Shown here: positions 29,288-63,647 of the stretch, piece by piece
Position numbering within the stretch: the first letter of the stretch is position 1
Layout: each line of letters opens with the position of its first letter
Source: Chloroflexota bacterium
GTDB taxonomy: Bacteria > Chloroflexota > Anaerolineae > 4572-78 > J111
Length of the DNA stretch: 64,000 nt
NCBI GenBank assembly: GCA_016860845.1
Contig: BOKF01000037.1
Location: 1 to 64,000 of the forward strand
Reading direction: 5' to 3'
The notes under the pieces: generated by a model
What the model was told of the DNA's origin: nothing
What the model saw: the letters and a program-made list of their open reading frames with translations, nothing else
Databases searched by the model: none
Translations under genes and position numbers: made by a program

Positions 29288-31138
29288 ATGAGCTGTACGC
29301 GCAACTCAACTAAACTGGCTACGGCCGCTGTTGCCAGCGGGGGTATTTCTAAGCTTGCGAGCCAGGCCAGCGCCGAAATTGGCCAAACCCAGGAAGCTCA
29401 TTATTACCTGCCTCAATGGGGTAATAAGCAGGGAAATTCTCGCCACCCCCTCTTCTGGCCACCCCCAGGGAAAGCTCGGCGTGGTTTTTGGGGAAGAGAT
29501 TATCAGGATCGGGTTAGACAAGCCTTACGAGCATGGCGTTCTCATGCTGACGACCAAGCACTGGCGAGAGTTCGGGCCGAATTGGCAAGTGACTTGGCTG
29601 ACCAGATCATTGCAATCAGGCGGAACGGCCATCCCGCAGGTATCGCCAGTGAATTGGCTGAAGAACGCGCGGCACTTCTACTTTCGCCGCCCGCCTCGCT
29701 TGCGACGGTGGAACGGATAGAGCGAATTGCCGTTTTGGATAACACCCTGGCCCTACTACGGTTAAAGCAGGCCATTACTGACGATCAATACCGGGCTGCC
29801 CTGGTCGATACCGTAACCTATTACCAACACGGGCACAAACGCAGCCGCACCCCGGTACGTTGGTTGCCGGCCCGTCCCGTTGGCTTTGAAACGGAGGTGT
29901 CCAGCCCCGTAGATCCGACCCGCAAGGTTAGAACGCGTTATCGGGTTATTGACCTGAACGAGCCTGTGACTTCAAATTCCTTAAGCGGTGAAATCAATCC
30001 CACTTATGATCAGTCTTTGCAACCTCGCCAGCGAGAACGAATTGCTTCACGCTGGCAAATCGAAGAGATTGCCAGGAAATTGGATGCTACCACGTTGTTA
30101 AACCCATCAGCCAGTTGGGCAGATGGGCCGCCTCTGTTAGGACAAGATGGTATGGTGGAGTCGGGGAATGGCCGCATATTAGCTTTGCGGCGAGCTTTGG
30201 AAATTAACCCCCTGGGTTATGCAGCTTATCGACAACAACTGCTGGCTCAGGCAGCCAGTTTTGGTTTCAGATCAAGCGATCTGGAAAAAATTCAGCAACC
30301 CTTGCTGGTCCGGGAACGATTAACCAGATTAACCCGACAAGCGCGGTTATCATTTATCAACGAAGCCAATGCCAGCGGGGTAGCACGGATGGGAGTAGGA
30401 GAGCAGGCACGTGCGAATGCCCGGCTTATTCCACCGGGTTTCTTTACCGATCTGCACATCGCCGAGTCGGATAACGGCCTGGCTGATGTCCTGACCAAAA
30501 AAGGAAATGCTCCCATCGTTGCCCGTCTGGTTAATTTGTTACCTGGGACAGAACGAGCGGCCCTAATGGATCAGCATGGCTCCTTGAGCACCGAAGGCAT
30601 TGACCATTTAGAGCGCGCTATATTTGCTTACACCATGCCAGCTTCGCCTCAGGGAGAACGCTTGGCCCGCTTAATCTTTGAGGAAGGCGAAGCAATTGAC
30701 CGGATTGGAGCGGGCTTAAAGCAAGCGCTCCCCAAATTGGGGCAAGTCGCTGATTTGGTCAAAGCAGGGCAGCGCCGTCCGGAGTTTGATCTAGGGGAAG
30801 ATTTGACGATTGCGATTCTAAAGATACACGACTTTCGCCAACAGGGTTTAAGCATGGCCGATTATCTAAGTCAGTACAAGATGTTCCCCGAATTGTCCCC
30901 CTTACAGGAGCAGTTGCTGGTGCAGCTAGATGAGCGGCGAAGATCAGCTCGAACTGTAGCAGCTCTTTTAAATGCTTATACGGATGAAGTAATGAACACA
31001 GCTGCACCCAATCAAACCAGCTTGCTCGGACACAACTTTAGTCTCAGCCGTGAGGATCTATTGAGAGTAGCCATTAAAAAAGTTGGAGGTAAGTGGATTG
31101 AGCTTCGCGCTAATCCACACATTCATTTCGTATCTTAA
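29288..31138 (+). CDS. MSC-leader protein with DdrB-like ParB-superfamily domain
   Basis: 616 residues from the ATG that starts the conserved leader (MSCTRNSTKL, then 'GGISKLASQ'). A TTG five codons upstream is in frame but would bury the leader. The middle contains the ddrB-like ParB-superfamily signature: 'NPTYDQSLQPRQR', 'LLGQDGMVESGNGRILALRR', then 'SFINEANASGVARMGV'. In phage P1 and many plasmids this domain occurs in proteins linked with antirestriction and DNA transfer. It lies just after the replication-relaxation gene, in the T4SS unit rather than with the other leader genes. There is no strong Shine-Dalgarno site; a 20-codon frame (29251-29313) overlaps the start and might couple translation. 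Confidence 0.75.
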   Translation: MSCTRNSTKLATAAVASGGISKLASQASAEIGQTQEAHYYLPQWGNKQGNSRHPLFWPPPGKARRGFWGRDYQDRVRQALRAWRSHADDQALARVRAELASDLADQIIAIRRNGHPAGIASELAEERAALLLSPPASLATVERIERIAVLDNTLALLRLKQAITDDQYRAALVDTVTYYQHGHKRSRTPVRWLPARPVGFETEVSSPVDPTRKVRTRYRVIDLNEPVTSNSLSGEINPTYDQSLQPRQRERIASRWQIEEIARKLDATTLLNPSASWADGPPLLGQDGMVESGNGRILALRRALEINPLGYAAYRQQLLAQAASFGFRSSDLEKIQQPLLVRERLTRLTRQARLSFINEANASGVARMGVGEQARANARLIPPGFFTDLHIAESDNGLADVLTKKGNAPIVARLVNLLPGTERAALMDQHGSLSTEGIDHLERAIFAYTMPASPQGERLARLIFEEGEAIDRIGAGLKQALPKLGQVADLVKAGQRRPEFDLGEDLTIAILKIHDFRQQGLSMADYLSQYKMFPELSPLQEQLLVQLDERRRSARTVAALLNAYTDEVMNTAAPNQTSLLGHNFSLSREDLLRVAIKKVGGKWIELRANPHIHFVS

Positions 31139-31211
31139 ACAAGGCGTTGAAAGACGCCCTTTGGAACTTGTTCGCCCGTGGTACCTGTTGAACTGTTGGA
31201 GAGTTAAAACT

Positions 31212-35526: not shown

Positions 35527-35787
35527 ATGAAAGTGATGACCCACTTGAAATTCCTCCAAGCCCTAAATCCTCATGAAATTAATTTTTCTACCATCGAGTG
35601 TCCCAAAATTGACCTAGCTGGACAGGACTTGTCTTTAGTTTTGATAAGAGGCAGTAACTTAAGAAAGACCAACCCGAGAAGCGAAAAAGGCAATGCTAAG
35701 AACAAAGAGATCGCCGGAATGACTTCTGGCCTCCTGGCTGGTTACTCATTTGATTATGTGTTAGAGAAAGCGATTAACGAATTATGA
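35527..35787 (+). CDS. Small hypothetical protein coupled to the SBBP giant gene
   Basis: 86 residues, stop overlapping the next ATG (ATGA). No signal peptide or known domain. The second half is basic ('[18 protein letters not shown]') and is followed by '[14 protein letters not shown]', which faintly recalls the Lys-then-Gly/Ala spacing of the MSC leaders but lacks MSC. The upstream Shine-Dalgarno is poor, so translation may depend on the leader frame that ends one base before it. Confidence 0.4.
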
Positions 35788-41700: not shown

Positions 41701-41948
41701 ATACCTATTACTGGCCATCCTTGAGTCAGTGGCGCATGCCTATCCAGGCAGGCACCCTCATCTACGCTCAAGTAGACTCGGCCCATATCAATACTAGTTA
41801 TGGCGGGGTCTTGGAAAGCCATGAAAAGACCAATCAATTTTACAACAACATCAGCGGTCCTGTCGTAACCACGGCTGACCTAGCTTTAGCTATGGAAAAT
41901 AAAACTACTGCGACGAGCCGCCACCGCCTGCCTCCTCGTCCCCAATAA
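35784..41948 (+). CDS. Giant SBBP beta-propeller / Ig-like repeat surface protein
   Basis: 2054 residues with a signal peptide (cleavage near 'SISHAT'). The N-terminal '[20 protein letters not shown]' domain is the one that usually precedes SBBP repeats. About nine SBBP units ('[15 protein letters not shown].YvtG.T.S..FP') span ~250-700. Nine Ig/cadherin-like repeats of ~90 residues, each with '[20 protein letters not shown]', occupy nt 37890-40610. Type-3 calcium repeats ('[14 protein letters not shown]') come next, then two IPT/TIG domains, a '[11 protein letters not shown]' motif and a CARDB-like C-terminal domain. No membrane anchor is visible. The start overlaps the preceding small gene. 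It is likely an adhesin used for cell contact. Confidence 0.85.
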
Positions 41949-43430: not shown

Positions 43431-44213
43431 TTGAGTTGCGAAACCTATTCTCATCGATTTGCGAAGTTCGCCGCCCAGGTGGGGAGCGGAATCCCAGGCT
43501 TGGGTAGTAAATGCGCTTTTTTTGCCGGTAAGGGCAGGGGTTTTATTACGGCGATGTCCAGGCATCGAATTTCGCGAGCAGCCAATGCAGCCAGGGTTGC
43601 GTTAATGAGCGGTTCAGTCGAGCCCGTGACTTTCCTCTTGGGCCAACAAGCTGCGCGAAGAAACGCTTTGCTAGCCAGTGCAGTAAGATTCGGCACCATG
43701 GTGCAGGTCAGGCGCATGGCCAGAAAGTATCGGTGGGATCAGCAGGAAGCAACATCCTGTCCAGAGGAAGGCTTCAATTTATTGGATGCGCAGCGCATGA
43801 CCGAGGAGTTTGGAGGCGCGCAAATGAGTCTCAAATCCCTGGAAGGGGTAGTGGGACCAGGTAGCCAATTCAAACCGGCAGTGAAGCTGGGAGGCGAAGA
43901 CGACATCTTTCTGGCCGACAGTCCGCGGGGGCATGTCTACTACGCTATGCCCACCGAAGATACGGCTCAAATTTGGGTGATAATGCCAAAGGAAGGCTAT
44001 CAGACCGAATTACAAGAGGTACTAGATGAAGCAACACCTAAATATGTAATTACCGATCTGATAACCGGCGACGAATACGCCACACGCGATCCTTTACAGG
44101 CCCAACAGTTTGCCAGAGCCTTAGGGAGCGATGGGGATTTGCGGCGGATTTGGATAGATGATTTTAGTTGGGACGAAGCGCGGAAACCTGTCCCGGAAAT
44201 GTTGTTTGCTTAG
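43431..44213 (+). CDS. MSC-leader protein, short member of the DYDGG/LEGL family
   Basis: 260 residues. It starts at TTG with AGGAG ten bases upstream; the second residue onward (SCETYSHRFAKFAAQ, then GSGIPGLGSK) is the conserved leader, which fixes the start. The C-terminal ~115 residues ('LDAQRMTEEFGGAQMSLKSL', 'PRGHVYYAMPTED') resemble the repeated module of the two larger proteins downstream (44739 and 46412): a regulator-like 'LE.LvG' helix, a 'G.vyyd' strand and a 'i.vImP..g.e..L...L' segment. Function unknown. Confidence 0.7.
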   Translation: MSCETYSHRFAKFAAQVGSGIPGLGSKCAFFAGKGRGFITAMSRHRISRAANAARVALMSGSVEPVTFLLGQQAARRNALLASAVRFGTMVQVRRMARKYRWDQQEATSCPEEGFNLLDAQRMTEEFGGAQMSLKSLEGVVGPGSQFKPAVKLGGEDDIFLADSPRGHVYYAMPTEDTAQIWVIMPKEGYQTELQEVLDEATPKYVITDLITGDEYATRDPLQAQQFARALGSDGDLRRIWIDDFSWDEARKPVPEMLFA

Positions 44214-50900: not shown

Positions 50901-51408
50901 TGATAAATACCGCTGGCAAACCGTTGAGCGAAAAGCTTTTACCGGCGACCAGGTCTTGAAAGGGGATATTTCAGATCGCACAGTCGACGACATTGATGTT
51001 GTCCATACCGATTATGCAACCATTAAAGCGATGGCAAGTGGCAATCCTCTCGTCGAACAGCGAGTTAAACTCCAGTTGGAGATCCAGCGCTCCCAGGGCT
51101 TAGAACGAGTTCATCAAAAACAACAGGACGAGGCCCGAACGAATCTGGATCAGATATTGGCTGAAATCGCCTTAATTGATCGGGAAGCTGTTAAAACCCC
51201 GGAATTGCTCGCAGAACGAGCCGAATTAATCAAGCAAAGCATGGAGTACCGGGCTACCCTGGGCGAACCCTTCCAGTACAGCCAACAGTTAAAGGATTTA
51301 CAAGACGAACTACAAAAACTAGAGCGTGAAATTGAAATCTCTAATCGACCCCAGCGTAAGAAAAGCAGCTTGCCGGTACGGCTCCTGCGCCGTATTTTTG
51401 GAGGTTAA
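47956..51408 (+). CDS. MSC-leader SNF2/DEAD-like helicase with zinc ribbons
   Basis: 1150 residues. The leader (MSCDSNYRAAAKAGA, then NGIAHTVSKG) is joined by a Gly/Ser/Pro-rich linker (~45-140) to a zinc ribbon 'CKKCGRFVGSRMVCQAC' (~148). A superfamily-2 helicase follows: Walker A 'LTGAGKT' near 433, motif II DESH near 595, motif III 'SATPL' near 668, motif VI 'QRRGRMVRQ' near 955. A second zinc ribbon, 'CQECGKFVGEAQICSACG', is inserted between motifs II and III. A coiled coil ends the protein. Such helicases occur in plasmid and phage giant proteins including antirestriction DarB of P1. No methyltransferase motifs are seen. A separate gene is nested in the linker (48074-48388). No in-frame start lies between linker and first ribbon except a poorly placed GTG, so the leader fusion is the best reading. 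Confidence 0.75.
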   Translation: MSCDSNYRAAAKAGAANGIAHTVSKGTAYGGRNYTMEELNDRRKRPPQTLLSAQRNGVTGDGASALAEISPSSLRPAPTDGLSGRVDPNGSSPDPGRSQPTDLVSSNGSARSVGNGTGGVGLAAGRGTSGGEVNGGGGTSGVGLEQRCKKCGRFVGSRMVCQACIFNDVLQKTGRIDWKQVAARSGVTVAQAQEYLSTAGLVFRDPRAGSWQTPTVYLSGNLRAKLKEAEAAAVANPAFQSNITFLKQHLPRDLKSDEIVAPLGAGWIPEEYVQQFAQSIGLDAKIEYIPQLAKWIVTPTQRFKKKGRNSAANRKQWGTRYVAGIDLLEQALNGREPTVTRRGKPDLDESYEARDKQDKLKREFEKWLWSNKNRAERLTRLYNDRFNASIRPKFDGSYLNNIPGLNPTFTLRPHQKDALARLLQSRYNTYLVHLTGAGKTLVLNSACMELRRLGLRRKPVIVVPNHRPTDHARDFLDAYPSAKVLVVTSEDLSGDGYNQTLAKIANSTEYDAIIMSHSASERIGMRRDTEIEFIKEKIAEYDETIQRLPAGATKKLKLLTVARERQEKKLQKLIQAPVDDGRLTWEDLGIDHCMVDESHKYKNLEFATRKQGVAGINPVGSARAMGMYMKVRYLQGRCQECGKFVGEAQICSACGSRVEEPNPGNICFASATPLDNSLAEMYTWMRFLQPKRLKKLGLDHFDAWSAQFARPMHIIELAPFGEGYREAIRFASFVNPQELSKLFSEVADIQLDPEKLDLRLPKELPTRIVSAPKSERLQQYMLYCDERAAKVRARQISLKEDNFLRIASDLNAAALDFRLVDPTAPDDPNSKVNLLVRGVLDTYRKTTGVSLPGVPGKHNLAQVIFLDLSTPKKGFNLYDDIKTKLVRQGIPAEEIAFVHDAKNDEEKQRLFDRVSLGKVRVLLASSEIGGEGANFQARLCKLHHLDVPWTPRKLIQRRGRMVRQKNLCPEVESVVYVTGGSFDKYRWQTVERKAFTGDQVLKGDISDRTVDDIDVVHTDYATIKAMASGNPLVEQRVKLQLEIQRSQGLERVHQKQQDEARTNLDQILAEIALIDREAVKTPELLAERAELIKQSMEYRATLGEPFQYSQQLKDLQDELQKLEREIEISNRPQRKKSSLPVRLLRRIFGG
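48074..48388 (+). CDS. Small protein nested out of frame in the helicase linker
   Basis: 104 residues in a different frame from the helicase. It starts at an ATG with a perfect GGAGG six bases upstream (48063-48067 region). The product looks like a normal folded protein: 'LPSEMELLEMVRQHWQKYRP', 'SIQTAVRLTLDALSQLI', 'HQMDPREAWETVREEW', helical, Trp/Gln/Glu-rich, with ordinary codon use. The helicase frame across the same bases is only Gly/Ser/Pro/Thr-rich linker, as expected if it is secondary to this gene. I do not recognise the family with certainty; small helical proteins of similar style occur as mobile-element accessory proteins. Confidence 0.65.
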   Translation: MTDENVLLKPFYLPSEMELLEMVRQHWQKYRPQAFARLQQMGYLEESIQTAVRLTLDALSQLISYHQMDPREAWETVREEWALLPAEELAEERLMGEEALAELD

Positions 51409-51827: not shown

Positions 51828-52568
51828 GTGTCTTGTGAGACTAATGGAAAAAAAGTAGGGGGGACAGCGGGAGTGGCTGCCGGTCTGCCTGCCTCGATCA
51901 GCAAAGCCAACTTCGCCCTGGGCGCCATCTCCAATCAGATACTCAATACCATAGATCGGGAGGGAACCCTTGCTCAATTGACGCGAAGTAAGCAGGGTGG
52001 CCGTTACCGGAATCGCGCTTTTGGCACACTTGTAGGCACGGGAGTTGTTGCAGCCACGGCGGCTGCACCCGAAGTGACTATCCCGACTCTTCTGTTTGGG
52101 GCCGTATTAGCTCGGAGAGCCAGCAAGATTAACCCAGATACAGCAACCGGTCCCCTGAGTAAACAGTCCATTACGGTACCAGGCCTATTTGGTCAAAAGC
52201 AGGTGGAGGTCCCGGTCTATCAGGAAAAAGGTAATCCAGGAAGACGGGTCTTCAGAGTGAAGAAAACCAATTGGGTGGTCCAGACGCACTCGGCCAAGGT
52301 CGAGCAAGGACAGTTACACCCCTATACCTCCCTGGAAACCAAAGCCGCCATACCCCAGTGCTACTTTTTTAACCGAACGTTGTCTGATGAAGAGGCCGTA
52401 CACATTGCCTCCGGCCAACGAGAGGCCCATAAAATTCCCGGTTATGTAGGCACGCTCTCTTATCGCGAGGCTCTCACGCCTATTTGGGGAACGGTCAAGG
52501 TCGGCATGATTCATGCCAGCGTGGCTCACCAACTGAGACAGCAAAACCACCCAACCGAAGGGGAGTAG
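51828..52568 (+). CDS. MSC-leader protein with LQSL/YYF/GYVG domain
   Basis: 246 residues from a GTG with AGAGG seven bases upstream. Leader: MSCETNGKKVGGTAGVAAG, then LPASISKANF. A hydrophobic region (~65-98) is followed by 'KINPDTATGP' and the shared C-terminal domain: 'YTSLETKAAIPQCYFF', 'LSDEEAVHIASGQ', 'IPGYVGTLSYREALTPIWG'. The gene at 59051 is its closest paralogue over the full length. Related C-terminal domains occur in 56387, 57874, 59780 and 60814. No catalytic motif is evident. Confidence 0.7.
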   Translation: MSCETNGKKVGGTAGVAAGLPASISKANFALGAISNQILNTIDREGTLAQLTRSKQGGRYRNRAFGTLVGTGVVAATAAAPEVTIPTLLFGAVLARRASKINPDTATGPLSKQSITVPGLFGQKQVEVPVYQEKGNPGRRVFRVKKTNWVVQTHSAKVEQGQLHPYTSLETKAAIPQCYFFNRTLSDEEAVHIASGQREAHKIPGYVGTLSYREALTPIWGTVKVGMIHASVAHQLRQQNHPTEGE

Positions 52569-52654: not shown

Positions 52655-53569
52655 ATGGCCTGCGAGTCATTTGTCAACAAGGTATCTAAAAAAGCCGCCC
52701 AAATCGGCGCTGGAATATATCAACTGGCTAGCAAACGCTCTTTTTATGCCGGAGTGACTGTTGGCGTAGTGGGTACGGGGGGAGTGGCCCTGTTAGCTAA
52801 TAAATTGCGCCACGCCCCGGTTCCTACTGCACTTCTAGCTAATACCTCTTCGCAACCAATTTTTGTTAATTACCAGCCTCGACCACAACGGAAAGGGGCC
52901 GCTGTTTTGTCAGAGCAAAAACCCGGCAGCAGGGCCAATCCTATCCAACTACCCCCTGAAGCTATCGCCGCTGCGCAGGCGCGGCCTGGCAGCCGGGCCA
53001 ATCCTCTCCAGTTACCCCCTGAGGCTATCGCCGCTGCACAAGCACAGCCTGGCAGCCGAGCCAATCCTCTCCAATTACCCCCTGAGGCTATCGCCGCTGC
53101 GGAATCTACCCAGGGAGGTCGGGCTAACGTCAAACCTGTTCCCATCTTGAGTCCTCGCCCCCCTGAAACAAAGCTTCAAGCGGCTACATTGCGAGTTCAA
53201 GCAAGTGACAAAACCTATACCCCCAAGACTAGTTATCGAGTGGTGAATTTAGAAGGCAAAGATATTGGCCTGGCGATTACGCCAGCGATCCATGAAGATA
53301 ACGAAGGGGAATTAACTGCATTAGAAGATGCGTGGTGTGTGACTCATACCCACACTGGTCAACTTATCAGCGGTCCTTACGAGACAGTCTCCGAGGCCCA
53401 TAGGCTGGCCAGCAGACTATCGAACATCCCCTGGTCTGCGCCTCACCTATCTCCGAAAGATATGATGTCCGCTCAGGAGATTATCAAGGAGTATACCGAG
53501 CAGATCGCGCCGGCTAAACAGACCAGGACGGATGAGCTGTCCAGAGAAGGGGGAAAGGATGAGTTGTGA
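52655..53569 (+). CDS. MAC-leader membrane protein with 21-residue tandem repeats
   Basis: 304 residues. The start is the ATG at which the leader appears (MACESFVNKVSKKAAQ, then GAGIYQLASKRS); Ala replaces Ser2. In-frame codons from 52484 overlap the previous gene and are ignored. A hydrophobic helix (~35-56) follows the leader. Three near-perfect 21-residue repeats ('PGSRANPLQLPPEAIAAAQA') form a Pro/Ala linker. The C-terminal domain ('YRVVNLEGKDIGLAITPAI', 'WCVTHTHTGQLISGPYETV', 'EAHRLASRLSNIPW') is shared with 53559 and 54937. Its end overlaps the next gene by 11 bases. Confidence 0.7.
   Translation: MACESFVNKVSKKAAQIGAGIYQLASKRSFYAGVTVGVVGTGGVALLANKLRHAPVPTALLANTSSQPIFVNYQPRPQRKGAAVLSEQKPGSRANPIQLPPEAIAAAQARPGSRANPLQLPPEAIAAAQAQPGSRANPLQLPPEAIAAAESTQGGRANVKPVPILSPRPPETKLQAATLRVQASDKTYTPKTSYRVVNLEGKDIGLAITPAIHEDNEGELTALEDAWCVTHTHTGQLISGPYETVSEAHRLASRLSNIPWSAPHLSPKDMMSAQEIIKEYTEQIAPAKQTRTDELSREGGKDEL
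52922..53110 (+). repeat. Three tandem 63-bp repeats
   Basis: Units start at 52922, 52985 and 53048, are 63 bases each (in frame) and differ at only a few positions. The high similarity implies recent expansion by slippage or recombination. They encode a Pro/Ala-rich spacer between membrane helix and C-terminal domain. Confidence 0.85.
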
Positions 53570-54935
53570 AAGCAGCTCTAATCGGTTCGCTCGGTTGACC
53601 AAGTGCGGTATCACTAAGTTGACCAGCAAACGAAGCTTTTATGCTGGTCTGGCTGCTGCGGGCGCTGGATTGGTGGGAGGTGGGCTTTTAATTATTGCCC
53701 GCCGAAGGAGCAATCCTCGTCCGCAGAATCGTCCTCCGGTGATCAGACAACAGTCTGGCTATTACAATGGGTGCCCTATTCCCTCTCTACAATCCCGGCC
53801 AAGAGTGAAACCGGATACGAAAATTCCTTCGTCCGAACGGTGCGGCCATTGCCGCACCCCGGCCGGAAGCAAGCCTGGCGCCTGGTATACCATCAACGGA
53901 CAAGCCTATTGTTCTGACTGCGCTCCGCCTGCCGCCAACCAAGCGGGCGTCGACTTGGTTGCGCCCGAAAATCAGTTAATGAGTGGTCAAAAGGGTGCTG
54001 AAGGGGGATCTGCACTCGTAAGTAGTCGCGCTAAAAATAAATTGACCCAGGCTGGAGTGCCCATCGTGCCCGGTCCGCTGCCTCGGGTTGATATTCTATC
54101 GGCTGAAGGTCTAGTTCAAACCAGGTTGGTCGCTAACAAAGTTTTAGTTCGGGTTAGCGACAATCCACCGCGAGGACATGTTGCCGAAAAAGCCTATGTG
54201 GTGAAGCAGCGACAAAACGATATAGATACTGGCCTGGCCCTTACCCCTGGGTTAAGGATCGTTCAAGGGAGTGGAGAAATAGGCATTCAAGAAGATACCC
54301 GCGAATGGTGGGTGGTTCATATTCCTAGTGGACGAACCATCTCACATCGGGGTTACACTCGGATCGAAGAGGCTCATATGCTGGCCAGCTACCTGGCGCA
54401 AATTGACTGGACTCGTGACTTGAGTGAGATCTCTGCAGCCGAAATAACTCGAACCAACAACTCGATCTCCAGTTATGATCAAAGCCTGGCCCAGCACAAG
54501 ATGAGTTCTCAAGCGGGGCCTGCGGTGGCAATAGCGACTGCAACGGCAGCAACGGCCCCTCCACCTCCTCCCGGCCCCTTATTGGGGACACTGGTCGCCG
54601 ATAATCAGGGTGGCCTCGCCCGGGTGTTGGGCGAAGAAGGCTCCAAACTGTTCTTGATGGATTTCCAAGGCCACCGCTATGAAACAGAACGCGCCTTTGT
54701 CCGACAACCTACGGAGGCCGATTACAACATTGCCGGTACAGCTATGCCGGTTGATCCAACAATAGTTCCGGATGAAAAATGCACCATTTGCGGGGCCAGG
54801 GCCAAAGAAGCGCCGGCAGGTACCAAGTGGCTCAAGATGGAGTGGAAAACCTACTGCGACTCCTGTGGCCCGGAGCATCAACGGGCAGAGGCATTTCTTA
54901 AAGAAGAAGATATAGGGACAAGAGAGACGCTCTAA
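53559..54935 (+). CDS. MSC-leader membrane protein with two zinc ribbons
   Basis: 458 residues; AGGGGGAAAGG precedes the ATG, which lies inside the end of the previous gene. Leader: MSCESSSNRFARLTK, then CGITKLTSKRSFYAG. A transmembrane helix follows (~32-52, 'AAGAGLVGGGLLIIARRR'). Zinc-binding motifs are 'CGHCRTPAG...YCSDC' (~97-130) and 'CTICGARAK...YCDSCG' (~410-445). Between them is the domain shared with 52655 and 54937 ('DTGLALTPGL', 'WWVVHIPSGRTISHRGYTRI', 'EAHMLASYLAQIDWTRD'). The zinc ribbons suggest nucleic-acid or protein binding; function unknown. Confidence 0.7.
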   Translation: MSCESSSNRFARLTKCGITKLTSKRSFYAGLAAAGAGLVGGGLLIIARRRSNPRPQNRPPVIRQQSGYYNGCPIPSLQSRPRVKPDTKIPSSERCGHCRTPAGSKPGAWYTINGQAYCSDCAPPAANQAGVDLVAPENQLMSGQKGAEGGSALVSSRAKNKLTQAGVPIVPGPLPRVDILSAEGLVQTRLVANKVLVRVSDNPPRGHVAEKAYVVKQRQNDIDTGLALTPGLRIVQGSGEIGIQEDTREWWVVHIPSGRTISHRGYTRIEEAHMLASYLAQIDWTRDLSEISAAEITRTNNSISSYDQSLAQHKMSSQAGPAVAIATATAATAPPPPPGPLLGTLVADNQGGLARVLGEEGSKLFLMDFQGHRYETERAFVRQPTEADYNIAGTAMPVDPTIVPDEKCTICGARAKEAPAGTKWLKMEWKTYCDSCGPEHQRAEAFLKEEDIGTRETL

Positions 54936-54936: not shown

Positions 54937-55584
54937 ATGTCGTGTAATGGTAATGCCAAAAGAGCCGGACAAGCAGGTATTTGTAATGGCATCAATGGTT
55001 ATGCCCATCAAAGCAGTTTCCTGGCTGGTCGAATCGATGATTTTGAGGACCTACAAGGTGAGGGGGAGGATAACGAATTTGTCCCTCCACCCAAGCCATA
55101 TTTCACGCCGGAGCAGCGAGTGAAAAACGTTCGACTGGAGCCTTCGCGGTTACGGGTGGCTATCGGTGACTATGAAAATCAAGCCGGGATAGTGGTTCAG
55201 CATGGGCAAGTCGTGCTCCGGCGAGATGGGTCGGATACAGGGCTAGCTATTGTGCCTAATCTCCAAATCAGCAATGAAGACGGAGTGCTGCGCGTTGAAG
55301 AAGACCTGAATCATTGGTGGGTACTTCACGTGCCTAGCGGCAGAACTATTTCGCAACAGCCCTATGGCGATATTCGCGAGGCTTTCTTACTGTCAAGCCT
55401 ACTGGCCCAGGTAGATTGGACGCGCGATCCAGACGAGATCAGCGATAAAGAATACGAGCGGGCAACATTGAGCATGCTCATGTACGACCGGGCTTTAGCC
55501 GAACAAAAGACCAGGCAAGGGTGGGCCGAAGATAAGGCGAATCTGCCAGGCCCAGCGCCTCAACTCAGAAAAGAGATATCCTAA
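54937..55584 (+). CDS. MSC-leader protein with WWVLHVPSGRTI domain
   Basis: 215 residues starting one base after the previous stop. Leader: MSCNGNAKRAGQAGIC, then NGINGYAHQSSFLAG; the usual Ser-Lys is replaced by His-Gln. No membrane helix follows. An acidic linker leads to the shared domain ('DTGLAIVPNL', 'HWWVLHVPSGRTISQQPYGD', 'LLAQVDWTRDPDEIS'). It is the shortest soluble member of the 52655/53559/54937 subfamily. Confidence 0.7.
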   Translation: MSCNGNAKRAGQAGICNGINGYAHQSSFLAGRIDDFEDLQGEGEDNEFVPPPKPYFTPEQRVKNVRLEPSRLRVAIGDYENQAGIVVQHGQVVLRRDGSDTGLAIVPNLQISNEDGVLRVEEDLNHWWVLHVPSGRTISQQPYGDIREAFLLSSLLAQVDWTRDPDEISDKEYERATLSMLMYDRALAEQKTRQGWAEDKANLPGPAPQLRKEIS

Positions 55585-55588: not shown

Positions 55589-56371
55589 ATGTCCTGCGAA
55601 AATAACGCCAACAAGGTTGCCCAGGCTGCTACCAAAAACGGGATCAGTAAAAATGCTGGCAAAAGCGGTTTCGTTGCCGGCAGCACGACTAAGATTACCG
55701 TTTTTTGCCCGGAGAAAAAGGCGCGAGTCCTCAAGGTATCCAAAGATGGAGGGCCAAAGCAATCAAAGAAAAAGAAATTTCGCCTTTCTAAAAAGAAAGA
55801 GCTAGCCAGGAACAGCAAAACGGCTCAAACATCGTTTTTTGAGGCTGCCGCTTCGCCGAAAGCAGACGATAGCAAAGGCTTGCCTACCCAACGGCACATT
55901 CTTTTGGCTAAAGAATTTACGGAAGATGAATTACTTCAGTTGACGACGCAATTACGATTTGGAGCCGCCGCGGCCGAACGTTACCTGCGTGGCATTAGCA
56001 GCGGATCGGAACGAGGCATCAGTCATAGCGATCCGCGACCTGCAGACTGGGTTCAGTTAGATCTCAAGCAGTATCAGTTCTTGGTTCATCAATTGGTCGA
56101 AGCCCGGCGGGGACGCGGTTATCTCGATACATCTTCCCTTTCGAAAAAGCAACTGATTGACTTGTGGGAATTTGCTCGCTTTGAGCTTGACCGAGCCAAT
56201 CGGAATATTGACCACCTCAACGTACCGGGGGGGCCAATTGGGGGGGAGACCGCCGAGTATCTGGTCGGGAAACATAAGCTGGAAGTACGCTTCTTTAATC
56301 TGGTCGCGACACAGATAGAGCGGATGGTACCGGCTGAAGAGTTGGATGCCGAGATCGGCCAGTTATTCTAA
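55589..56371 (+). CDS. MSC-leader protein with basic linker and helical domain
   Basis: 260 residues. Leader: MSCENNANKVAQAATKNGIS, then KNAGKSGFVAG. A Lys/Arg-rich segment (~45-75, 'KQSKKKKFRLSKKKE') follows and could bind nucleic acid. The C-terminal ~170 residues are predicted mainly helical ('LIDLWEFARFELDRANRNID') and share no visible domain with the neighbours. The first 11 residues of the leader are identical to those of the next gene. Confidence 0.65.
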   Translation: MSCENNANKVAQAATKNGISKNAGKSGFVAGSTTKITVFCPEKKARVLKVSKDGGPKQSKKKKFRLSKKKELARNSKTAQTSFFEAAASPKADDSKGLPTQRHILLAKEFTEDELLQLTTQLRFGAAAAERYLRGISSGSERGISHSDPRPADWVQLDLKQYQFLVHQLVEARRGRGYLDTSSLSKKQLIDLWEFARFELDRANRNIDHLNVPGGPIGGETAEYLVGKHKLEVRFFNLVATQIERMVPAEELDAEIGQLF

Positions 56372-56386: not shown

Positions 56387-57859
56387 ATGTCGTGCGAGAA
56401 CAACGCTAATAAAGTCAGCGGTACAGCGGGATCAAAATCGGGGATTACAGCGCTGCAAAGCAAATTTGGCAGTGTAACCGGACGCATGGCTTGTGTGCTC
56501 ACGAAAAAACTTGGACAAATGACTACTGCCGGGCTGTATGTAACAGAGAGTTTTGAGGGACCTAAATCACTCAACTCCCTGTTGGAGGCTGCGGTCGCCG
56601 TCGAGGCGGGGGCGCTGATAATGGCCTCACGGCGCAAACCTGCTCCACTGGCTGAACCTGAACCCGAATCAAGAAAGATCAAACTACCTTCGGCGAGTGT
56701 CACTACCCCTGATGGTGGTACCCGTATTATTGATGACGACGCCACACTCGCCGCTTGGGCCCAGGCCTGGTATGACAAACGGCACCCACAGCCAGGGAGG
56801 GATGATAAAGCGCCACGCCGGGATAGAGATAAAAAAGAGGACGGGGAACGTTCATCTTTGCCCCGCGCACTCAATCCAGATCAGTTTGCCAGTCAAGCCC
56901 GTAAGCGTCTATTTATGGCGGTTGGTTTGTTGAAATTGATTCAAATGGGCAGTACTTTTTCCGGTTCAGGCTTAGCCCGCCTGTCGCGCTTGAATAAAGA
57001 AGGGGTCGTGGACGGAATCGAACAGCGCTTTTACTTCCTACAAACCGCTAAAGTGCCCGTAACCGTATGGCGGTCCAGTTTAACGCCCTGGCTCAACATG
57101 CTCGATAGCGGCCTGGGGCGGGTGCTAAGGAGTGATGGCGTCATGTTCGACGTCAACGGTAAGACCTGGCATCGAGGTACAGTGGTACTCCAAACAACCC
57201 AGGGAGAACGAACTATCAGTCACTTGCAGAGTCTGACGTTCCCGGCGGTCCATTACTACTATGGTCGACGCCTGGACGATAATGAAGCGGTTGGGATTGC
57301 TTCGGCGCAGAAAGGATTTGACCCCAAACATCTACCGGAGCGCCCTTCCGGATTACCTGCAACCGGTTATGCCGGGCAAATCTCGGAAATCGAATCTCTC
57401 CTGCCAATGTGGGCCAGTATGAAGCGAGGTTTAATCCAGGCTCATCTGCGCTGGGGTACGAATCCGCGCGGCCCGCAACGACAGCAAGCCGAAATTACAG
57501 GGACACCGGCCACTTATGAGACTCCTCCCCAACCAGATAAAAAGCGTGAAGACAAGAGAGGGCGTAATGGCAAAGCGCCGCGACGCAACTCGCCTGCGCC
57601 AGTGGAAGAACCGGCAACGGAACCAAAAGTCCACGAACTCCACCCTCTTGACAACATTGGAGCGAGAGTACGGTTGAATAATCAAGAGTACAAAGTAATG
57701 ATCCGCAGAGTAATCAAATCGCCAGACGGTCAACCTGCCCGGGCCGATGCGACTTATTTTGATGAAACTGCTGGGGTCTGGAAAGAAGTAACGGACGATG
57801 AGGCCAGGCAACACCTGGCGGCTCAAGTCGAGGCTGGGCTACTCGAGACATGGCAGTAG
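56387..57859 (+). CDS. MSC-leader protein with HRGT/LQSL domain and C-terminal module
   Basis: 490 residues; AAGGAG precedes the ATG. Leader: MSCENNANKVSGTAGSK, then SGITALQSKFGSVTG. A charged linker (~130-165) leads to the shared domain: 'VPVTVWRSSLTPWLN', 'SDGVMFDVNGKTWHRGTVVL', 'ERTISHLQSLTFPAVHYYYG', 'GYAGQISEIESLLPMWASMK'. The last ~60 residues ('YKVMIRRVIKSPDGQPARAD', 'YFDETAGVWKEVTDDEARQH') form a separate module found again at the end of 62379. Domain combination shows shuffling within the family. Confidence 0.7.
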   Translation: MSCENNANKVSGTAGSKSGITALQSKFGSVTGRMACVLTKKLGQMTTAGLYVTESFEGPKSLNSLLEAAVAVEAGALIMASRRKPAPLAEPEPESRKIKLPSASVTTPDGGTRIIDDDATLAAWAQAWYDKRHPQPGRDDKAPRRDRDKKEDGERSSLPRALNPDQFASQARKRLFMAVGLLKLIQMGSTFSGSGLARLSRLNKEGVVDGIEQRFYFLQTAKVPVTVWRSSLTPWLNMLDSGLGRVLRSDGVMFDVNGKTWHRGTVVLQTTQGERTISHLQSLTFPAVHYYYGRRLDDNEAVGIASAQKGFDPKHLPERPSGLPATGYAGQISEIESLLPMWASMKRGLIQAHLRWGTNPRGPQRQQAEITGTPATYETPPQPDKKREDKRGRNGKAPRRNSPAPVEEPATEPKVHELHPLDNIGARVRLNNQEYKVMIRRVIKSPDGQPARADATYFDETAGVWKEVTDDEARQHLAAQVEAGLLETWQ

Positions 57860-57873: not shown

Positions 57874-59019
57874 ATGTCGTGCGAGAAAAACGGTTCGAAA
57901 GTCAGTCATACCGCCGGAGTAGCCGCTGGCATCAGTCTGGTTGCCAGCAAATTAAGTCACACTGTGGGCAGAATAAGGAATTGGGCGGCTCAGTCGGCTG
58001 CCACTATCATCGAGACGGCCGGGCCTCAAGTTGTTCCCTCGACCAGCCGAGTCGCCCAAGTTGCTACAGAAGCAGCGGCGCAGGTAGCTAAGGTTACCGA
58101 TGCAGCCTCGATAGGAATTGGGTCAAACGTCGCTATGCTAACCAATCCTCTATTAAAAGCCGTTGACCGCCCAGCAACTACGATCGCTAAGATTATACCG
58201 CTTATTCCTATCGGCCTGATCGCCAGCCAGGATATTGATGCCAGGATTACGGTTACCGGACCACATCAGGGGTATCAGCCGGCAGTAATAATGGGGGCGC
58301 GATTAACCGGACTGTCAAACCTCTTCAGGGCTGGTGGGGCTGCCAGTAGCCTGATCTACAAATGGTTTCTTCTTAAAAAGCTGGCTTCAGTTGGGGGCGC
58401 TGGATTGGCAGCGATGGCAACCAAGCCGGAAAGTAAGCGTGTACTGATTCACGAGAAAAGCAACCAGGAGGTTAAGTTCTACAAAACCGGATTGACCCCC
58501 TGGTTGAATCGGTCCAATCTGCTGGTTAGCCCCCAATGCGTAATCTCCGATGACGGAGATATTATTCAGTTTCGAACAAAATTGGGGGGACCAAAGGCCT
58601 GGTATCGCGGGACGACGATGCTACGGTTACCCAGTGGTAACGAGGGCGACCCAGAGGAACGAACGCTGACCTACTTGCAAAGTCTGACGCTTCCGGTCGC
58701 CAGTTACTACTTCAACCGGCCCTTATCAGACGAAGAGGTGGCCGATATCATCACTGAGCGGGGAGATAAAGCGCCTCACCAGATGGAAGGATACGTTGGC
58801 TCCATCAGTTCCTGGGAAAACCTGTCGCCAGGCTGGGCCAGTACTAAACGGATGATGATTTTAACCCAGTTGCACTGGCCTCCGACTCCGTCTTCATCAA
58901 AATGGAAGGCCGAGGAGCCGGCAACTGACATTAAGAGAGTGGTATTAAAACGAATTCCCAAGCCGCAAAATCCCCCGGCAGAGGTAGTTTCAGAAACTAT
59001 CAGGACCATTTGGGATTAG
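57874..59019 (+). CDS. MSC-leader protein with LQSL/YYF domain
   Basis: 381 residues. Leader: MSCEKNGSKVSHTAGVAAG, then ISLVASKLSHTVG. An Ala/Val/Thr-rich segment (~35-90) may be helical. The shared domain includes 'FYKTGLTPWLNRSNLL', 'AWYRGTTMLRLPSG', 'ERTLTYLQSLTLPVASYYFN', 'GYVGSISSWENLSPGWAST'. Its ATG lies 14 bases after the preceding stop; the upstream 'GGAGACG' is the likely ribosome site. Confidence 0.7.
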   Translation: MSCEKNGSKVSHTAGVAAGISLVASKLSHTVGRIRNWAAQSAATIIETAGPQVVPSTSRVAQVATEAAAQVAKVTDAASIGIGSNVAMLTNPLLKAVDRPATTIAKIIPLIPIGLIASQDIDARITVTGPHQGYQPAVIMGARLTGLSNLFRAGGAASSLIYKWFLLKKLASVGGAGLAAMATKPESKRVLIHEKSNQEVKFYKTGLTPWLNRSNLLVSPQCVISDDGDIIQFRTKLGGPKAWYRGTTMLRLPSGNEGDPEERTLTYLQSLTLPVASYYFNRPLSDEEVADIITERGDKAPHQMEGYVGSISSWENLSPGWASTKRMMILTQLHWPPTPSSSKWKAEEPATDIKRVVLKRIPKPQNPPAEVVSETIRTIWD

Positions 59020-59050: not shown

Positions 59051-59767
59051 ATGTCATGCGATCGAAACGGTTCAAAGGCGGGAGCAACGGCGGGAGTAGC
59101 CGCAGGCTTGAGCGAAACGACCAGCAAACAAAGTAATGTCATAGGCGCCTTCTCAAACCGAGTCATGAATGTAATTGATCGGAACGGTGTAATGGCCCAT
59201 GTGGCTCGCAATCCGGTACGGGTGGCCCTTCATAATACGTTCACTGCCGGCCTGGTTACAGTTGGACTGACCGGGGTAGCGACTGCAGCTGCAACCAATC
59301 CTGTTGCGGTAGTGCCTCTTGTCGGAAGCGCTCTAGCCCTCAAACAATGGGCGTCTATTAATCCTGATACGGACAAGGGACCTGTGGCCACGCTGGAGGT
59401 CAGCCGGCGGAACGATTGGGCGATCAAAGGCAAGGAAACAGTCAATGTGTATGTGGATAAGAACAATGCCAACAAGCGGGTATTTACTTTAAACCAGCGT
59501 AATTGGGGCTGCCAAACTTACTCGATACCTGGCGACCATGGTCAACCGCAAGGGGCGTATACCGTGCTCGCTTCTCGGACCGTACCACAGGATTATTACT
59601 ATTTCAAAGGCGAGATCTCCAGTGAAGATGCCGTGCGCGTTGCTGCTGGCGAGGTAAAGGCTGAGAAACTGGAAGGGTATGCCGGGCGCGTGTCCTTCCG
59701 GGAAGGGCTTTCACCTTCCTGGGCCTTCTTAAAGCACCGGATGATTCAGAGCAGTTTGACCGTTTAA
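59051..59767 (+). CDS. MSC-leader protein, paralogue of the first gene of the cluster
   Basis: 238 residues; AAAGGAG precedes the ATG. Leader: MSCDRNGSKAGATAGVAAG, then LSETTSKQSNVIG. It aligns over its whole length with 51828: 'NRVMNVIDRNGVMAHVAR' against 'NQILNTIDREGTLAQLTR', a hydrophobic middle, 'SINPDTDKGP' against 'KINPDTATGP', then 'YYYFKGEISSEDAVRVAAGE' and 'GYAGRVSFREGLSPSWAF'. Function unknown. Confidence 0.7.
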   Translation: MSCDRNGSKAGATAGVAAGLSETTSKQSNVIGAFSNRVMNVIDRNGVMAHVARNPVRVALHNTFTAGLVTVGLTGVATAAATNPVAVVPLVGSALALKQWASINPDTDKGPVATLEVSRRNDWAIKGKETVNVYVDKNNANKRVFTLNQRNWGCQTYSIPGDHGQPQGAYTVLASRTVPQDYYYFKGEISSEDAVRVAAGEVKAEKLEGYAGRVSFREGLSPSWAFLKHRMIQSSLTV

Positions 59768-59779
59768 TCGGAGACCAGT

Positions 59780-60787
59780 GTGAGTTGCGAGTATCAATCC
59801 ACCCGAATTGGTAAATTAGGAGCCACGGCAGCCGGAATTCCCAGAATGGCTAACAAGATGGGCGATCTGATTGGCATTATCGCTGCCCGGCTAACTCCTC
59901 TCACGCAGCAGGTTAGCCAGCAACTAGACCAGTTGTCGTCCAGTACAGACCAGACGATCAATCGGCTGGGACAATTCGCTTCACCGGTGGCTACAAAAAC
60001 GGTGAACTTTTTGGAGGATGAGCGACGAGTGAAACCTACGCTAACCCTGGGAATTTTGGCAGCCGGAGCCGTGGTAGCGGGCCGAGCTGGGCTTAGCATT
60101 GCTGCTGTTTCGGGTGCAATGGCCGGGGTCAATCAAGCGACCAGAATTATGGAGCGAAGCGCTAAAACGGCGGGCATGGCTCCCAGCGTAGCGACATTAG
60201 CCGGAATGATGAAAATACCGTTTCGTCCTTCCGGTTTCAAAGCAACTTTTCTGGGAGCGGGTTTGAAACTGGCCGTTGAGGTGGTTACTACTAAGGCAGG
60301 GAACGAGTTGGCGGAAGCGACCAAGTCTGAAGATATGGCAAACCTGACTCAAGTGAAACGCAATATGGTGTTCTTTAAATCACAGAAGCAGATACCTCGT
60401 TGGAGATCGAATTTAACCCCGCTGCTTAATCGGAGCGATGTCATTGGCACAATAAATTCACACCATCTCGTTTCGAGCGAAGGCGTCATGTTCAAAACGG
60501 CAGGGATCACCTGGCATCGGGGCACTTCAGTCATCCAGATGCCAGACGGTCAGCGCACGCTCAGTCATGTTCAAAGCTTACAGTGGCCAGCGATCCATTA
60601 TTACTTCGACCAACCTCTTTCTGATGAACAGGCAGTTGGCCTGGCGACAGGTGAACTCAAGCCACAAAGCGTACCCGGGTATGTCGGCTCCATCAGTAAA
60701 AAAGAAGGACTAATGCCACTGTGGGCTAATACAAAACGTGCCATGCTATTAATCCGGCTGCATTGGCCACCCAAACTAGAGGATTAA
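59780..60787 (+). CDS. MSC-leader protein with HRGT/LQSL domain
   Basis: 335 residues from a GTG; CGGAGA lies upstream. Leader: MSCEYQSTRIGKLGATAAG, then IPRMANKMGDLIG (Asn-Lys in place of Ser-Lys). A Gln/Ser-rich helical stretch (~40-65) and hydrophobic segments (~90-115) follow. The C-terminal domain has 'IPRWRSNLTPLLNRSDVIG', 'SSEGVMFKTAGITWHRGTSV', 'RTLSHVQSLQWPAIHYYFD', 'GYVGSISKKEGLMPLWANTK'. Close relative of 60814 and of the middle part of 56387. Confidence 0.7.
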   Translation: MSCEYQSTRIGKLGATAAGIPRMANKMGDLIGIIAARLTPLTQQVSQQLDQLSSSTDQTINRLGQFASPVATKTVNFLEDERRVKPTLTLGILAAGAVVAGRAGLSIAAVSGAMAGVNQATRIMERSAKTAGMAPSVATLAGMMKIPFRPSGFKATFLGAGLKLAVEVVTTKAGNELAEATKSEDMANLTQVKRNMVFFKSQKQIPRWRSNLTPLLNRSDVIGTINSHHLVSSEGVMFKTAGITWHRGTSVIQMPDGQRTLSHVQSLQWPAIHYYFDQPLSDEQAVGLATGELKPQSVPGYVGSISKKEGLMPLWANTKRAMLLIRLHWPPKLED

Positions 60788-60813
60788 AGAAAGTTTATTG
60801 GGGATAGTGAATT

Positions 60814-61668
60814 ATGAGTTGCGAAATCCACCTTCATGCCGTCGGTAAGAGTGCTGCAGCGAATGCCGGCATCCCGTATCTATCCAGTAAATCCAGCCAT
60901 ATCATGGGGGCAATGATGACCCGGCTTAATAGCACCGGACCGAAATTACTGGAACGCGTGGAAGAGAAAACTACTTTCTTGGGCCAGGGGATGGCTCTGG
61001 CTGGATCCTCGTTGGGAGTAGCCGGACCGGTGAATAGCAAAACCATTGCCGCACAAAAGGCCGCCGCCTGTACCCTGAAAACAGGCATCGGAGTGGCTAT
61101 AACTGCGGCAACTTATTTCAATCCCATGGTTCGTACTGCTGTACGTGTGGCTAAGATTGGCCAACTTGTTGGCGATGTTGCTGCCACGGCCGCACTGTCC
61201 TATAGCCACACCGACAGGGCCGGAGATGCTTTCGTTGAGAGCTCATTTTTCTTCATGAAAACCAAACGGACAGTGCCGATGTGGAGGTCCAGCCTGACCC
61301 ACACAATCAACCGGCAGGATGCAATGGTCCTCAATCAAAAGAACATTCTATCAAGCGACGGCATGATGTTTACAACAAGACTGACCACCTGGCATTGCGG
61401 TACCTCGATTATTAAGAGCCGAAGCGGCGAGCGTACGATCACCCATCTACAGAGTTTTAGTATTCCCGGGCAGCATTATTACTTTAGCGGCCCTCTGTCC
61501 AAAACTGAGGCAGCGAACCTGGCCAGTGGCAGTCTTAGCCCCGAGAAAATACCCGGGTATGTCGGACAAGTTTCGGCCTGGGATTGGTTGTGTCCAGCCT
61601 GGGCTGCCAACAAACACACGCTCATTCGATCCTACTTAAACTTTGGCCCTCAGACCAAAGCGAGCTAG
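60814..61668 (+). CDS. MSC-leader protein with HCGT/LQSF domain
   Basis: 284 residues. Leader: MSCEIHLHAVGKSAAANAG, then IPYLSSKSSHIMG. An Ala/Gly-rich hydrophobic middle (~60-130) is followed by 'VPMWRSSLTHTINRQDAMV', 'SSDGMMFTTRLTTWHCGTSI', 'ERTITHLQSFSIPGQHYYFS', 'GYVGQVSAWDWLCPAWAANK'. Cys replaces the Arg of the 'WHRGT' motif. It is the last gene before the repeat array. Confidence 0.7.
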   Translation: MSCEIHLHAVGKSAAANAGIPYLSSKSSHIMGAMMTRLNSTGPKLLERVEEKTTFLGQGMALAGSSLGVAGPVNSKTIAAQKAAACTLKTGIGVAITAATYFNPMVRTAVRVAKIGQLVGDVAATAALSYSHTDRAGDAFVESSFFFMKTKRTVPMWRSSLTHTINRQDAMVLNQKNILSSDGMMFTTRLTTWHCGTSIIKSRSGERTITHLQSFSIPGQHYYFSGPLSKTEAANLASGSLSPEKIPGYVGQVSAWDWLCPAWAANKHTLIRSYLNFGPQTKAS

Positions 61669-62378
61669 TGCTTGAGAAATGATGATTCTACCGTTTGTTC
61701 AGGCAAAAAATTTCCTCAAATATAGCGACGAATCTTCAGTGTGCGTTCCAACGTAACTGTGAAGTGAAATAAAAATATCAAAAGAGGAAATTTTGAGGAA
61801 CAACCACAACATATAGGGGCCTTTAATCGAAATGACAGGGTCTGTAGTAGAAATTGAAAAATCGCGTTGATATCTGCCCCTCGTACTATGGAGGCTAAAC
61901 GTGAAATAATCCAGCGTATCCGTGAAAAAAGTAGCCGAATCCAGCCTAACTATGGAAAAAGTTCCAACGGCCTCAATCGTGCATTTTTCGAGGCGCAAAA
62001 AATTCGAGAGTCCAGCATAACTGTGGAAAAAGTTCCTCTGTGGACTGAAGTGGTTAAAGCCTTAGGAATGATTTTGCCTGATAAGGGGAAAATATTTCGC
62101 GGTTATAGTGGAAATTACCTGAGGACGAAAAGAGAACTTTTTTCACACTTACACTGGAAATAGACTCGGTCCGAAGTAGACCCTGGTCTAGTGAAGTAAA
62201 AATTGGAGGGGTAACGGTCCATTTACCACCCGATTCACCCTCTATTTCACACTTACGCTGGATTTTTGGAGGGTAGCCTATGAACTTTTTACACACTTAC
62301 GATGGAAAAGATGATTATTTCACAGTTACGTTGGAATATACACAGTAGGAGGCTAATTCTTGAGGGGAGAACCCGGCA
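61669..62378. repeat. Non-coding region with eight 18-20 bp repeats, four in each orientation
   Basis: Consensus TTCCAGCGTAACTGTGAAA. Forward copies start near 61747, 61910, 61940 and 62011. Reverse-complement copies lie near 62141-62160, 62245-62262, 62288-62307 and 62318-62336. A weaker reverse copy may occur at 62101-62115. The region is otherwise AT-rich. A 98-codon frame across the forward copies (61867-62163) has no family features and is built from the repeats. The layout suggests binding sites for a plasmid-encoded DNA-binding protein: replication or transfer origin, centromere, or operator. Confidence 0.75.
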
Positions 62379-63647
62379 ATGAGTTGTAACAAGAATGGGC
62401 AGCGCTGCACGAATGCGGCCTTGCGGAATGGAATTTTTGGTTGGTCAAGCCAGTATTTGAATATCTTGGGTAGTTGGAGTACTTGGAAGGATGTTAAGAG
62501 TATAGAAGATATCCCCGAACGGATCGCTCAACTGACGGCCACGATGTTAGGCATAAAAGGATTGATCGAGGGCCATCCCTACATCGCCGGCGCAATGGGC
62601 ATTCTTATCGCTTCGCAAGTCCTCGAAAAAGCAAGCGCCGGCTTTGTCACGACGGGTGCACGCCTGTTTCTTCGCGGCGAACCGCTGGTGCTTTATCGCG
62701 GTATTCTTATCCGCAAAAGTCCGATTGAGCCTCACACGACCAAGTTTTGGAATGCTGTCACCGGCGGAAACGTGCTGGCTAGCCGGGGATACTATTTCTT
62801 TGAGGGTGGTCATACCTGGCACTGCCAATCGGTCACCGTCCAGGTAGGGGACACGCCTAAAACGATGACCCAGGTGCGTAGTTACAGTATTCCCTATCGG
62901 GAATTCTACTTTGACCGGCCTGTTTATATCCCGGGGGTTGATCCCGACCCTGAAGAAGGCGAACGGACGATTTCCATTCAGCGGGTTGTGGATACGGTCA
63001 TGGCCGACGAAAACCCGGATCTAATTCCCGGTTTTATCGGTTACACCAATCCTTTAGAGAACTTGACCGTCCTGGGTCATGGTAAACGTCTGCTCTTCTT
63101 CGCCAACTGGTTAACAGTAGATGAAGGGGAACGCGACGTTGGGCGAGGAGACTTTGTTGACTATGAAGCCTTGATAAAAGGGGTGGCTCCAGGCAGTTCA
63201 ACGCAGCCAAGCGGCGGCGACTACTATGTGGTGAAGAAGTCAAATGGTTCAGCTGGCAATAACGCCGGTTTACCGCAGATGAAACCTTTGGTGAATCTCA
63301 ATGCCTACACCACCCCTGCCTATGCCACCAGTACACCACCAAGCAGTCAGCCTTATGGCATCAATCTTTTTAGCAGCGCGGCGACTAAGCCACCCAAGCA
63401 GCTCAGCAGCATTCCCTACAAGTATGTTGACGAGGATCAAAAAGAACATCCTTTGATTATAAAACGTGTAACGAAACAGCTCAACGGAGGATATCGGGCA
63501 GATGCGATTTATTATGATGAAGGAATCCAACGATGGCGGGAGGTGACAGACGACGAAGATAAAGAAGCAATAGCTCAAAAAGTAATTACTGGTGAGTGGC
63601 AAAAAACACCGGAAAGCGAATGGCCCGGTAATCAAACCTATATCTAA
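62379..63647 (+). CDS. MSC-leader protein with shared C-terminal TDDE module
   Basis: 422 residues. Leader: MSCNKNGQRCTNAALRNG, then IFGWSSQYLNILG (Ser-Gln in place of Ser-Lys). The middle has a divergent version of the shared domain: 'SRGYYFFEGGHTWHCQSVTV', 'MTQVRSYSIPYREFYFDRPV', 'LIPGFIGYTNPLENLTVLG'. After a Pro/Ser linker the last ~60 residues ('HPLIIKRVTKQLNGGYRADA', 'YYDEGIQRWREVTDDEDKEA') match the C-terminal module of 56387. It follows the repeat array, which may therefore hold its promoter or operators. Confidence 0.7.
   Translation: MSCNKNGQRCTNAALRNGIFGWSSQYLNILGSWSTWKDVKSIEDIPERIAQLTATMLGIKGLIEGHPYIAGAMGILIASQVLEKASAGFVTTGARLFLRGEPLVLYRGILIRKSPIEPHTTKFWNAVTGGNVLASRGYYFFEGGHTWHCQSVTVQVGDTPKTMTQVRSYSIPYREFYFDRPVYIPGVDPDPEEGERTISIQRVVDTVMADENPDLIPGFIGYTNPLENLTVLGHGKRLLFFANWLTVDEGERDVGRGDFVDYEALIKGVAPGSSTQPSGGDYYVVKKSNGSAGNNAGLPQMKPLVNLNAYTTPAYATSTPPSSQPYGINLFSSAATKPPKQLSSIPYKYVDEDQKEHPLIIKRVTKQLNGGYRADAIYYDEGIQRWREVTDDEDKEAIAQKVITGEWQKTPESEWPGNQTYI

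Follow-up and report, generated by a model that had tools for sequence, protein, structure and literature searches.

Why should proteins of dissimilar build begin with one and the same peptide? The question is raised by a 64,000-nt stretch of DNA from a Chloroflexota bacterium (assembly GCA_016860845.1, contig BOKF01000037.1, positions 1 to 64,000; hereafter the window), in which an earlier note had described sixteen genes sharing an N-terminal leader that starts Met-Ser-Cys. We find that this leader is real and modular, and that it is absent from the libraries and literature searched. The genes that carry it form an array accompanied by genes of a type IV secretion system (T4SS), and on balance the 35-residue leader likely serves as an address tag, by which proteins are passed to the neighbouring T4SS for delivery into a recipient cell.

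Sixteen genes of the window share one N-terminal leader

All sixteen starts named in the note proved to be open frames with the leader, which opens Met-Ser-Cys except at 52655, where it opens Met-Ala-Cys. A six-frame search of the whole window with a profile hidden Markov model (HMM) of the sixteen leaders returned exactly those sixteen; the weakest had E=4.6e-12 and the next frame E=0.4. The three starts described as GTG or TTG with the leader intact were found as such (GTG at 51828 and 59780, TTG at 43431). When one family of bodies at a time was left out of the HMM, 16/16 held-out window leaders scored above the best decoy, the narrowest being that of 51828 (E=0.12 versus 0.35 for the decoy).

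The sequence of the leader was defined from 42 aligned copies: the sixteen of the window and 26 from three relatives, namely 11 from G001, a 9.4-Mb metagenome-assembled genome (MAG) of the Anaerolineales (Chloroflexota) with its array on contig C8, 14 from G014, another genome of the Anaerolineales, and 1 from G013. The consensus reads M-[S/A]-C-E - x - N - x - N-[K/R] - small residues - A - G-[I/L/V] - x4 - [S/G/N]-[K/Q/R] - x5 - G, with Gly-Ile in columns 20-21 and Ser-Lys in columns 26-27. Cys3 is present in 42/42 leaders, a count partly set by the choice of rows since leaderless copies were excluded from the set. Residue 2 is Ser in 38 leaders and Ala in 4, and is Thr in one database relative (P0021); Gly is found in 40/42 leaders at column 20 and in 40/42 at column 33. 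Translation starts at ATG in 21 cases, GTG in 15 and TTG in 6, and AGGA, GGAG or GAGG was counted by eye at most 20 nt upstream of 9/16 window starts.

Where two of the sixteen window leaders have the same residue in columns 2-10 (439 pairs), the third codon position differs in 58% of cases, and among the 42 leaders Ser2 is encoded by AGY in 25 and by TCN in 13. Because codon choice varies at conserved residues, it is the protein and not the DNA that is kept: the leader is selected at the protein level. Its net charge is positive in 42/42 cases. By a hydropathy criterion only (10-residue mean Kyte-Doolittle of at least 1.6 within residues 2-25), a Sec-type hydrophobic core is absent from 40/42 leaders and present in two, W57874 and G014C473_42039. 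A structure model of 59780 places helices at residues 3-17 and 22-49 of the N-terminal part with low confidence; together with the positive charge, these predicted helices would fit a docking peptide. A small residue at position 2 permits removal of the first Met, so that mature tagged proteins would begin with Ser-Cys or Ala-Cys.

The bodies behind the leader belong to six families

The note had called the bodies unrelated. BLAST of residues 46 onward grouped them into six families of 7, 3, 3, 1, 1 and 1 members, so that the description fails for the sixteen taken singly and holds for the families, between which no homology was seen. All genes lie on the plus strand. Family A comprises 51828..52568, 56387..57859, 57874..59019, 59051..59767, 59780..60787, 60814..61668 and 62379..63647; family B comprises 52655..53569, 53559..54935 and 54937..55584; and family C comprises 43431..44213, which has a 39% identical relative in G001, 44739..46037 and 46412..47656. 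Each assignment combines the leader HMM with body BLAST. The three single bodies are 29288..31138 (D), in which the leader makes up the first ~36 codons, 47956..51408 (H) and 55589..56371 (E), the last with leader-bearing relatives in G001 and G014. Two of these can be recognized. A DdrB-like ParB domain occupies residues 211-344 of 29288 (PF18763, E=2.4e-27), with no second Pfam domain above cut-off in that protein, and 47956 is an SNF2-type helicase matching PHROG 10089 (DarB-like antirestriction) at E=4.4e-227.

Eight body sets, the six window families and two extra ones from G001, were compared profile against profile. None of the 28 pairs exceeded 1.7% probability. With the leaders alone, 26/28 pairs reached at least 85.9%, the two low ones (D-H at 21% and D-x2 at 19%) being single-sequence profiles. 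Judged by these comparisons, the leader is a module common to bodies without detectable homology. The leader profile thus spans bodies between which no homology is seen as well as ordinary paralogues, to which the note had considered that its matches might be confined.

Several features of the bodies were observed in passing. The body of 53559 holds Cys-rich, zinc-ribbon-like stretches (by eye), and that of 52655-53569 has three near-identical tandem repeats of ~20 residues each (PGSRANPxQLPPEAIAAA). The family-A C-terminal domain of 59780 (window 60320-60787) was modelled with a mean pLDDT (predicted local distance difference test) of ~90; the model bears a faint resemblance to DcrB and to the SciW/Eag chaperones of type VI secretion effectors, at E>=0.12, which is not significant.

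The leader array is linked to a type IV secretion system

Leader array and the same T4SS block occur together in the window, on G001:C8 and on G014:C473, which are the three longest contigs with leaders. The block common to all three consists of a VirB2-like pilin, VirB4, the gene at 21496, a YdjM protein, the coupling ATPase and a replication-relaxation protein. In the window, the TrbC/VirB2-like pilin (17216..17662; PF04956, E=7e-4, below the curated cut-off; relatives in G014 and G001) is followed by the VirB4-type T4SS ATPase (17662..20178; TIGR00929, E=1.6e-18, below cut-off), which is 72-76% identical to the G001 and G014 copies. The next conserved neighbour, ATPase-like by eye and without a Pfam match (21496..23385), has 48-51% identity in G014 and G001. 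The VirD4/TrwB-type coupling ATPase (25251..28142) matches PF10412 at E=6e-7, with 29.1 bits over a cut-off of 20.5. The replication-relaxation (Replic_Relax) gene (28175..29191; PF13814, E=1.2e-15; 54-55% identity in G001 and G014) lies directly upstream of the first leader gene at 29288; in G001 the coupling ATPase and the replication-relaxation protein are ~13 kb apart. A large protein of the block (8365..11376) is conserved in G014 at 44% identity. Like the leader genes, these six window genes are all encoded on the plus strand. Gene order within the array is conserved across elements.

The leader is rare and clustered. When the best 150 of 172 candidates of the whole G001 MAG were scored, 12/12 leader matches at E<=0.001 fell within one 21-kb stretch (C8:24.8-45.7 kb), and the next match (E=0.096) was a leaderless paralogue. 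The leader HMM had matches in 4/25 genomes of the order, 4/396 of the class and 1/400 in an even sample of the phylum, the last being G001 itself. The match in G012 is a leaderless paralogue covering model positions 11-35 alone, so that true leaders are found in 3/396 class genomes; the wide occurrence without T4SS that the note had envisaged was thus not seen. The coupling ATPase had matches in 27/396 genomes, and identities of at least 59% (59-79%) in G001 and G014 alone, both of which have arrays. These class-wide scans of 396 genomes scored at most 19 and 2 candidates per genome. N-termini were also compared at two distant T4SS loci: none paired in G010, and G016 yielded a single weak pair (E=0.002). 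Applied to G001, this comparison detected 11 leader pairs, which involve 6 leader genes, and one unrelated pair. Proximity of the leaders to a T4SS, which the note had asked about, was borne out by the profile search on 3/6 leader contigs and failed on the other three (8, 16 and 30 kb), which show none.

Very large DUF11-repeat, beta-helix and SBBP/cadherin-like proteins are encoded around the T4SS block of the window (749-8341, 31083-33536 and 35784-41948), and genes for a tyrosine recombinase, gyrase B and a gyrase A C-terminal part stand between leader genes of G001 (L036 4950-11044; G001:C8:29950-36044).

Some homologues encoded elsewhere lack all or half of the leader

G001 has three DarB-like loci, and the array locus on C8 alone has the leader; the loci on G001:C10, G001:C4, G008:C4 and G008:C5 are without it. 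In the window, 47956 holds leader and helicase in one intact frame. Leaderless relatives align to it only from about residue 144-174 on; for 20 plasmid relatives among the matches listed for 47956, the alignment begins at residue 144-170. Because DarB-like relatives elsewhere are without the leader, we conclude that it was joined to an already known type of protein in this setting. The leaderless DarB-like proteins start MSQLSFF, MQLSFF or MQLSLF (L104 frame from 4774 in G001:C10, L106 frame from 5744, L107 minus-strand frame 7276), and these starts resemble a sliding-clamp binding motif.

A family-A profile search returned 24 proteins, of which two belong to the window; 20/22 of the others carry the leader, the database relatives P0022 and P0024 being without it. 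With family B, 31 proteins were found, one from the window, and the leader is present in 26/30 of the others; of the remaining four, three begin within the leader sequence and the fourth after it. In a genome-collection scan, the family of 62379 occurred on a single contig (JABTUW010000007.1, from the Anaerolineales MAG G001), at two places. This gene has leaderless paralogues, in L001, on G012:C22 and at G014:C473:57.7 kb, that lack Met-Ser-Cys and retain the second half of the leader. Thus, as far as these alignments reach, homologues of two leader-bearing bodies are without the leader when encoded elsewhere. In G012 the copy is clustered with genes for a ubiquitin-like protein, an E2, a JAB peptidase and a ThiF-type protein, and both this VirB4 and true leaders are absent from that genome. 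Since the leaderless G012 copy is found without VirB4, the data would fit a link between the Met-Ser-Cys half and the secretion setting.

The neighbourhood of these paralogues raises the idea that a ubiquitin-like modification system on the same elements (Prok_Ub, E2, JAB, ThiF) uses the leader as its handle. An E2 is indeed present on the array contigs G014:C473 and G001:C8: matching cassette genes lie beside the leaderless copy in G014, and in G001 an E2 at C8:141 kb lies near a copy. However, four of the 6/25 genomes with an E2 have no true leaders, G013 has a leader and no E2 match, and a Pfam scan of 35 genes of the window (64 kb of the 82.9-kb contig) showed no such gene, all of which makes this the least credible account, with very little chance of being right. 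The cassette itself (Prok_Ub, Prok-E2_D, JAB and ThiF; L083 7061-18172, G014:C473:46.6-61.8 kb and G001:C8:141-155 kb, with the leaderless family-A paralogue in or near it) is similar to PRTRC, a cassette of plasmids.

The leaderless homologues also bear on whether the sixteen genes are ordinary tandem paralogues, descended from one ancestral gene that was duplicated and kept its start while the bodies diverged. In favour of such an origin, 13/16 bodies are members of one of three paralogous families, and the genes keep their order. It is nonetheless improbable: the DarB-like and DdrB-like families have leaderless members elsewhere, no remote homology joins the body families, and leaders and bodies of matching genes show similar identity across elements (bodies 34-55% identical in 18 pairs), so that drift of the body alone is not seen.

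A putative cargo tag

DarB-like and DdrB-like proteins and at least four other families share the leader beside a T4SS. The most economical reading is that this T4SS recognizes the leader as a cargo tag. The sorting or recognition tag proposed in the note stands in so far as bodies without detectable homology share the leader and leaderless homologues exist elsewhere; the destination of the tagged proteins, like every step beyond the linkage of array and T4SS, is something that we infer. The coupling ATPase at 25251 or a partner would read Ser-Cys-Glu, a basic segment made largely of small residues, Gly-Ile, Ser-Lys and the final Gly. Tagged proteins would then enter the recipient through the T4SS, some of them perhaps travelling with the DNA of the element, and once delivered may protect or establish the element there.

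Several observations weigh against delivery. Firstly, 14/16 bodies have no Pfam match above cut-off and no known function; a PHROG search of 10 of the 16 proteins gave, besides 29288 and 47956, weak matches alone, among them that of 59780 to a phage tape-measure PHROG (E=0.0075). Secondly, T4SS signals known so far are mostly C-terminal, the leader helices are modelled with low confidence, and the DarB-like gene in the G001:C8 array is broken, with leader and helicase parts in different frames. Thirdly, the linkage is incomplete: no T4SS homologue was found on G014:C770 (30.4 kb, with its leader gene at the very end) or G014:C354 (15.6 kb), G013 (one leader gene on an 8.4-kb contig) has no match to this VirB4 or coupling ATPase genome-wide, and a T4SS fragment at G001:C1:675-680 kb is without a leader array. 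Given such a fragment and further coupling-ATPase copies in G014 (C795, C505 and C841), G001 and G014 may hold several such elements or remnants. Finally, the relaxase family PF03432 was found in 0/3 genomes (G001, G013 and G014; Lactococcus control positive; other relaxase families not searched), and DNA transfer by this T4SS is therefore not supported.

The main competing possibility is an assembly or anchoring tag that gathers proteins at the donor T4SS or membrane to serve the machine. An array of conserved order adjoining the T4SS and the positive charge of 42/42 leaders agree with it, and a hydrophobic segment, which immediately follows the leader in most family-B proteins (including 52655 and 53559) and in two window members of family C (44739 and 46412), also fits membrane anchoring. 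However, the two recognizable cargoes, a DarB-like helicase and a DdrB-like protein, are not machine parts, and the leader-protein bodies are less conserved between elements (the 34-55% given above) than VirB4 (72-76%) or the coupling ATPase (59-79%). We regard this explanation as unlikely, yet as one to be taken seriously.

The two recognizable bodies are relatives of DdrB and DarB of phage P1, kinds of protein carried in the P1 virion. Six Dar proteins are taken into that virion, and 30 N-terminal residues of DarB are enough to direct a reporter to the capsid (PMC9024508). The leader might likewise be a targeting signal for a virus-like particle that belongs to an unseen phage or gene-transfer module, for which DarB is the closest experimental precedent (PMC9024508); DdrB-like domains occur mostly in proteins of phages or prophages (PMC5512222), and the weak tape-measure match of 59780 points the same way. 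We consider this improbable, as no capsid, portal or terminase family was seen among the 35 window genes scanned and T4SS genes are found instead; ~19 kb of the contig lie outside the window.

Considered as a cargo tag for the T4SS, the leader has partial parallels. In P1 DarB, with its capsid targeting sequence, and in the T4 internal proteins, a short N-terminal peptide is likewise borne by proteins that accompany the DNA, and DarB-like and DdrB-like proteins carry such a peptide here. Unlike in P1, where the Dar proteins have no common N-terminal consensus by BLAST (PMC9024508), one sequence is on all sixteen proteins, and T4SS genes rather than virion genes are seen. The polyvalent proteins of phages and conjugative elements, for which transfer at invasion was proposed (PMC5512222), offer another parallel in that DdrB-like ParB and DarB-like SNF2 helicase domains are encoded here on DNA with T4SS genes. 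In contrast to them, the proteins described here are separate and arrayed, each with the same leader, and 14/16 are bodies without known function; the passages of PMC5512222 consulted make no mention of a shared tag. An N-terminal T4SS translocation signal derived from a nanoluciferase reporter is similarly N-terminal and, as predicted for the leader, helical, but it was discovered accidentally in a single reporter protein (PMC10100965), whereas the present peptide is conserved over many families and its transport putative.

In a stronger form, which we advance tentatively and hold somewhat more doubtful than not, an undescribed lineage of Chloroflexota T4SS would use one Cys-bearing N-terminal tag as a universal cargo signal, such that any protein gaining the tag would be delivered and the element could recruit, besides DarB-like and DdrB-like proteins, six or more other unrelated ones into its injected kit. 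With the tag on eight or more body families, likely cargo could be listed directly from sequence. It would also suggest that T4SS elements and phages separately equipped proteins of the DarB and DdrB type with an N-terminal tag for routing.

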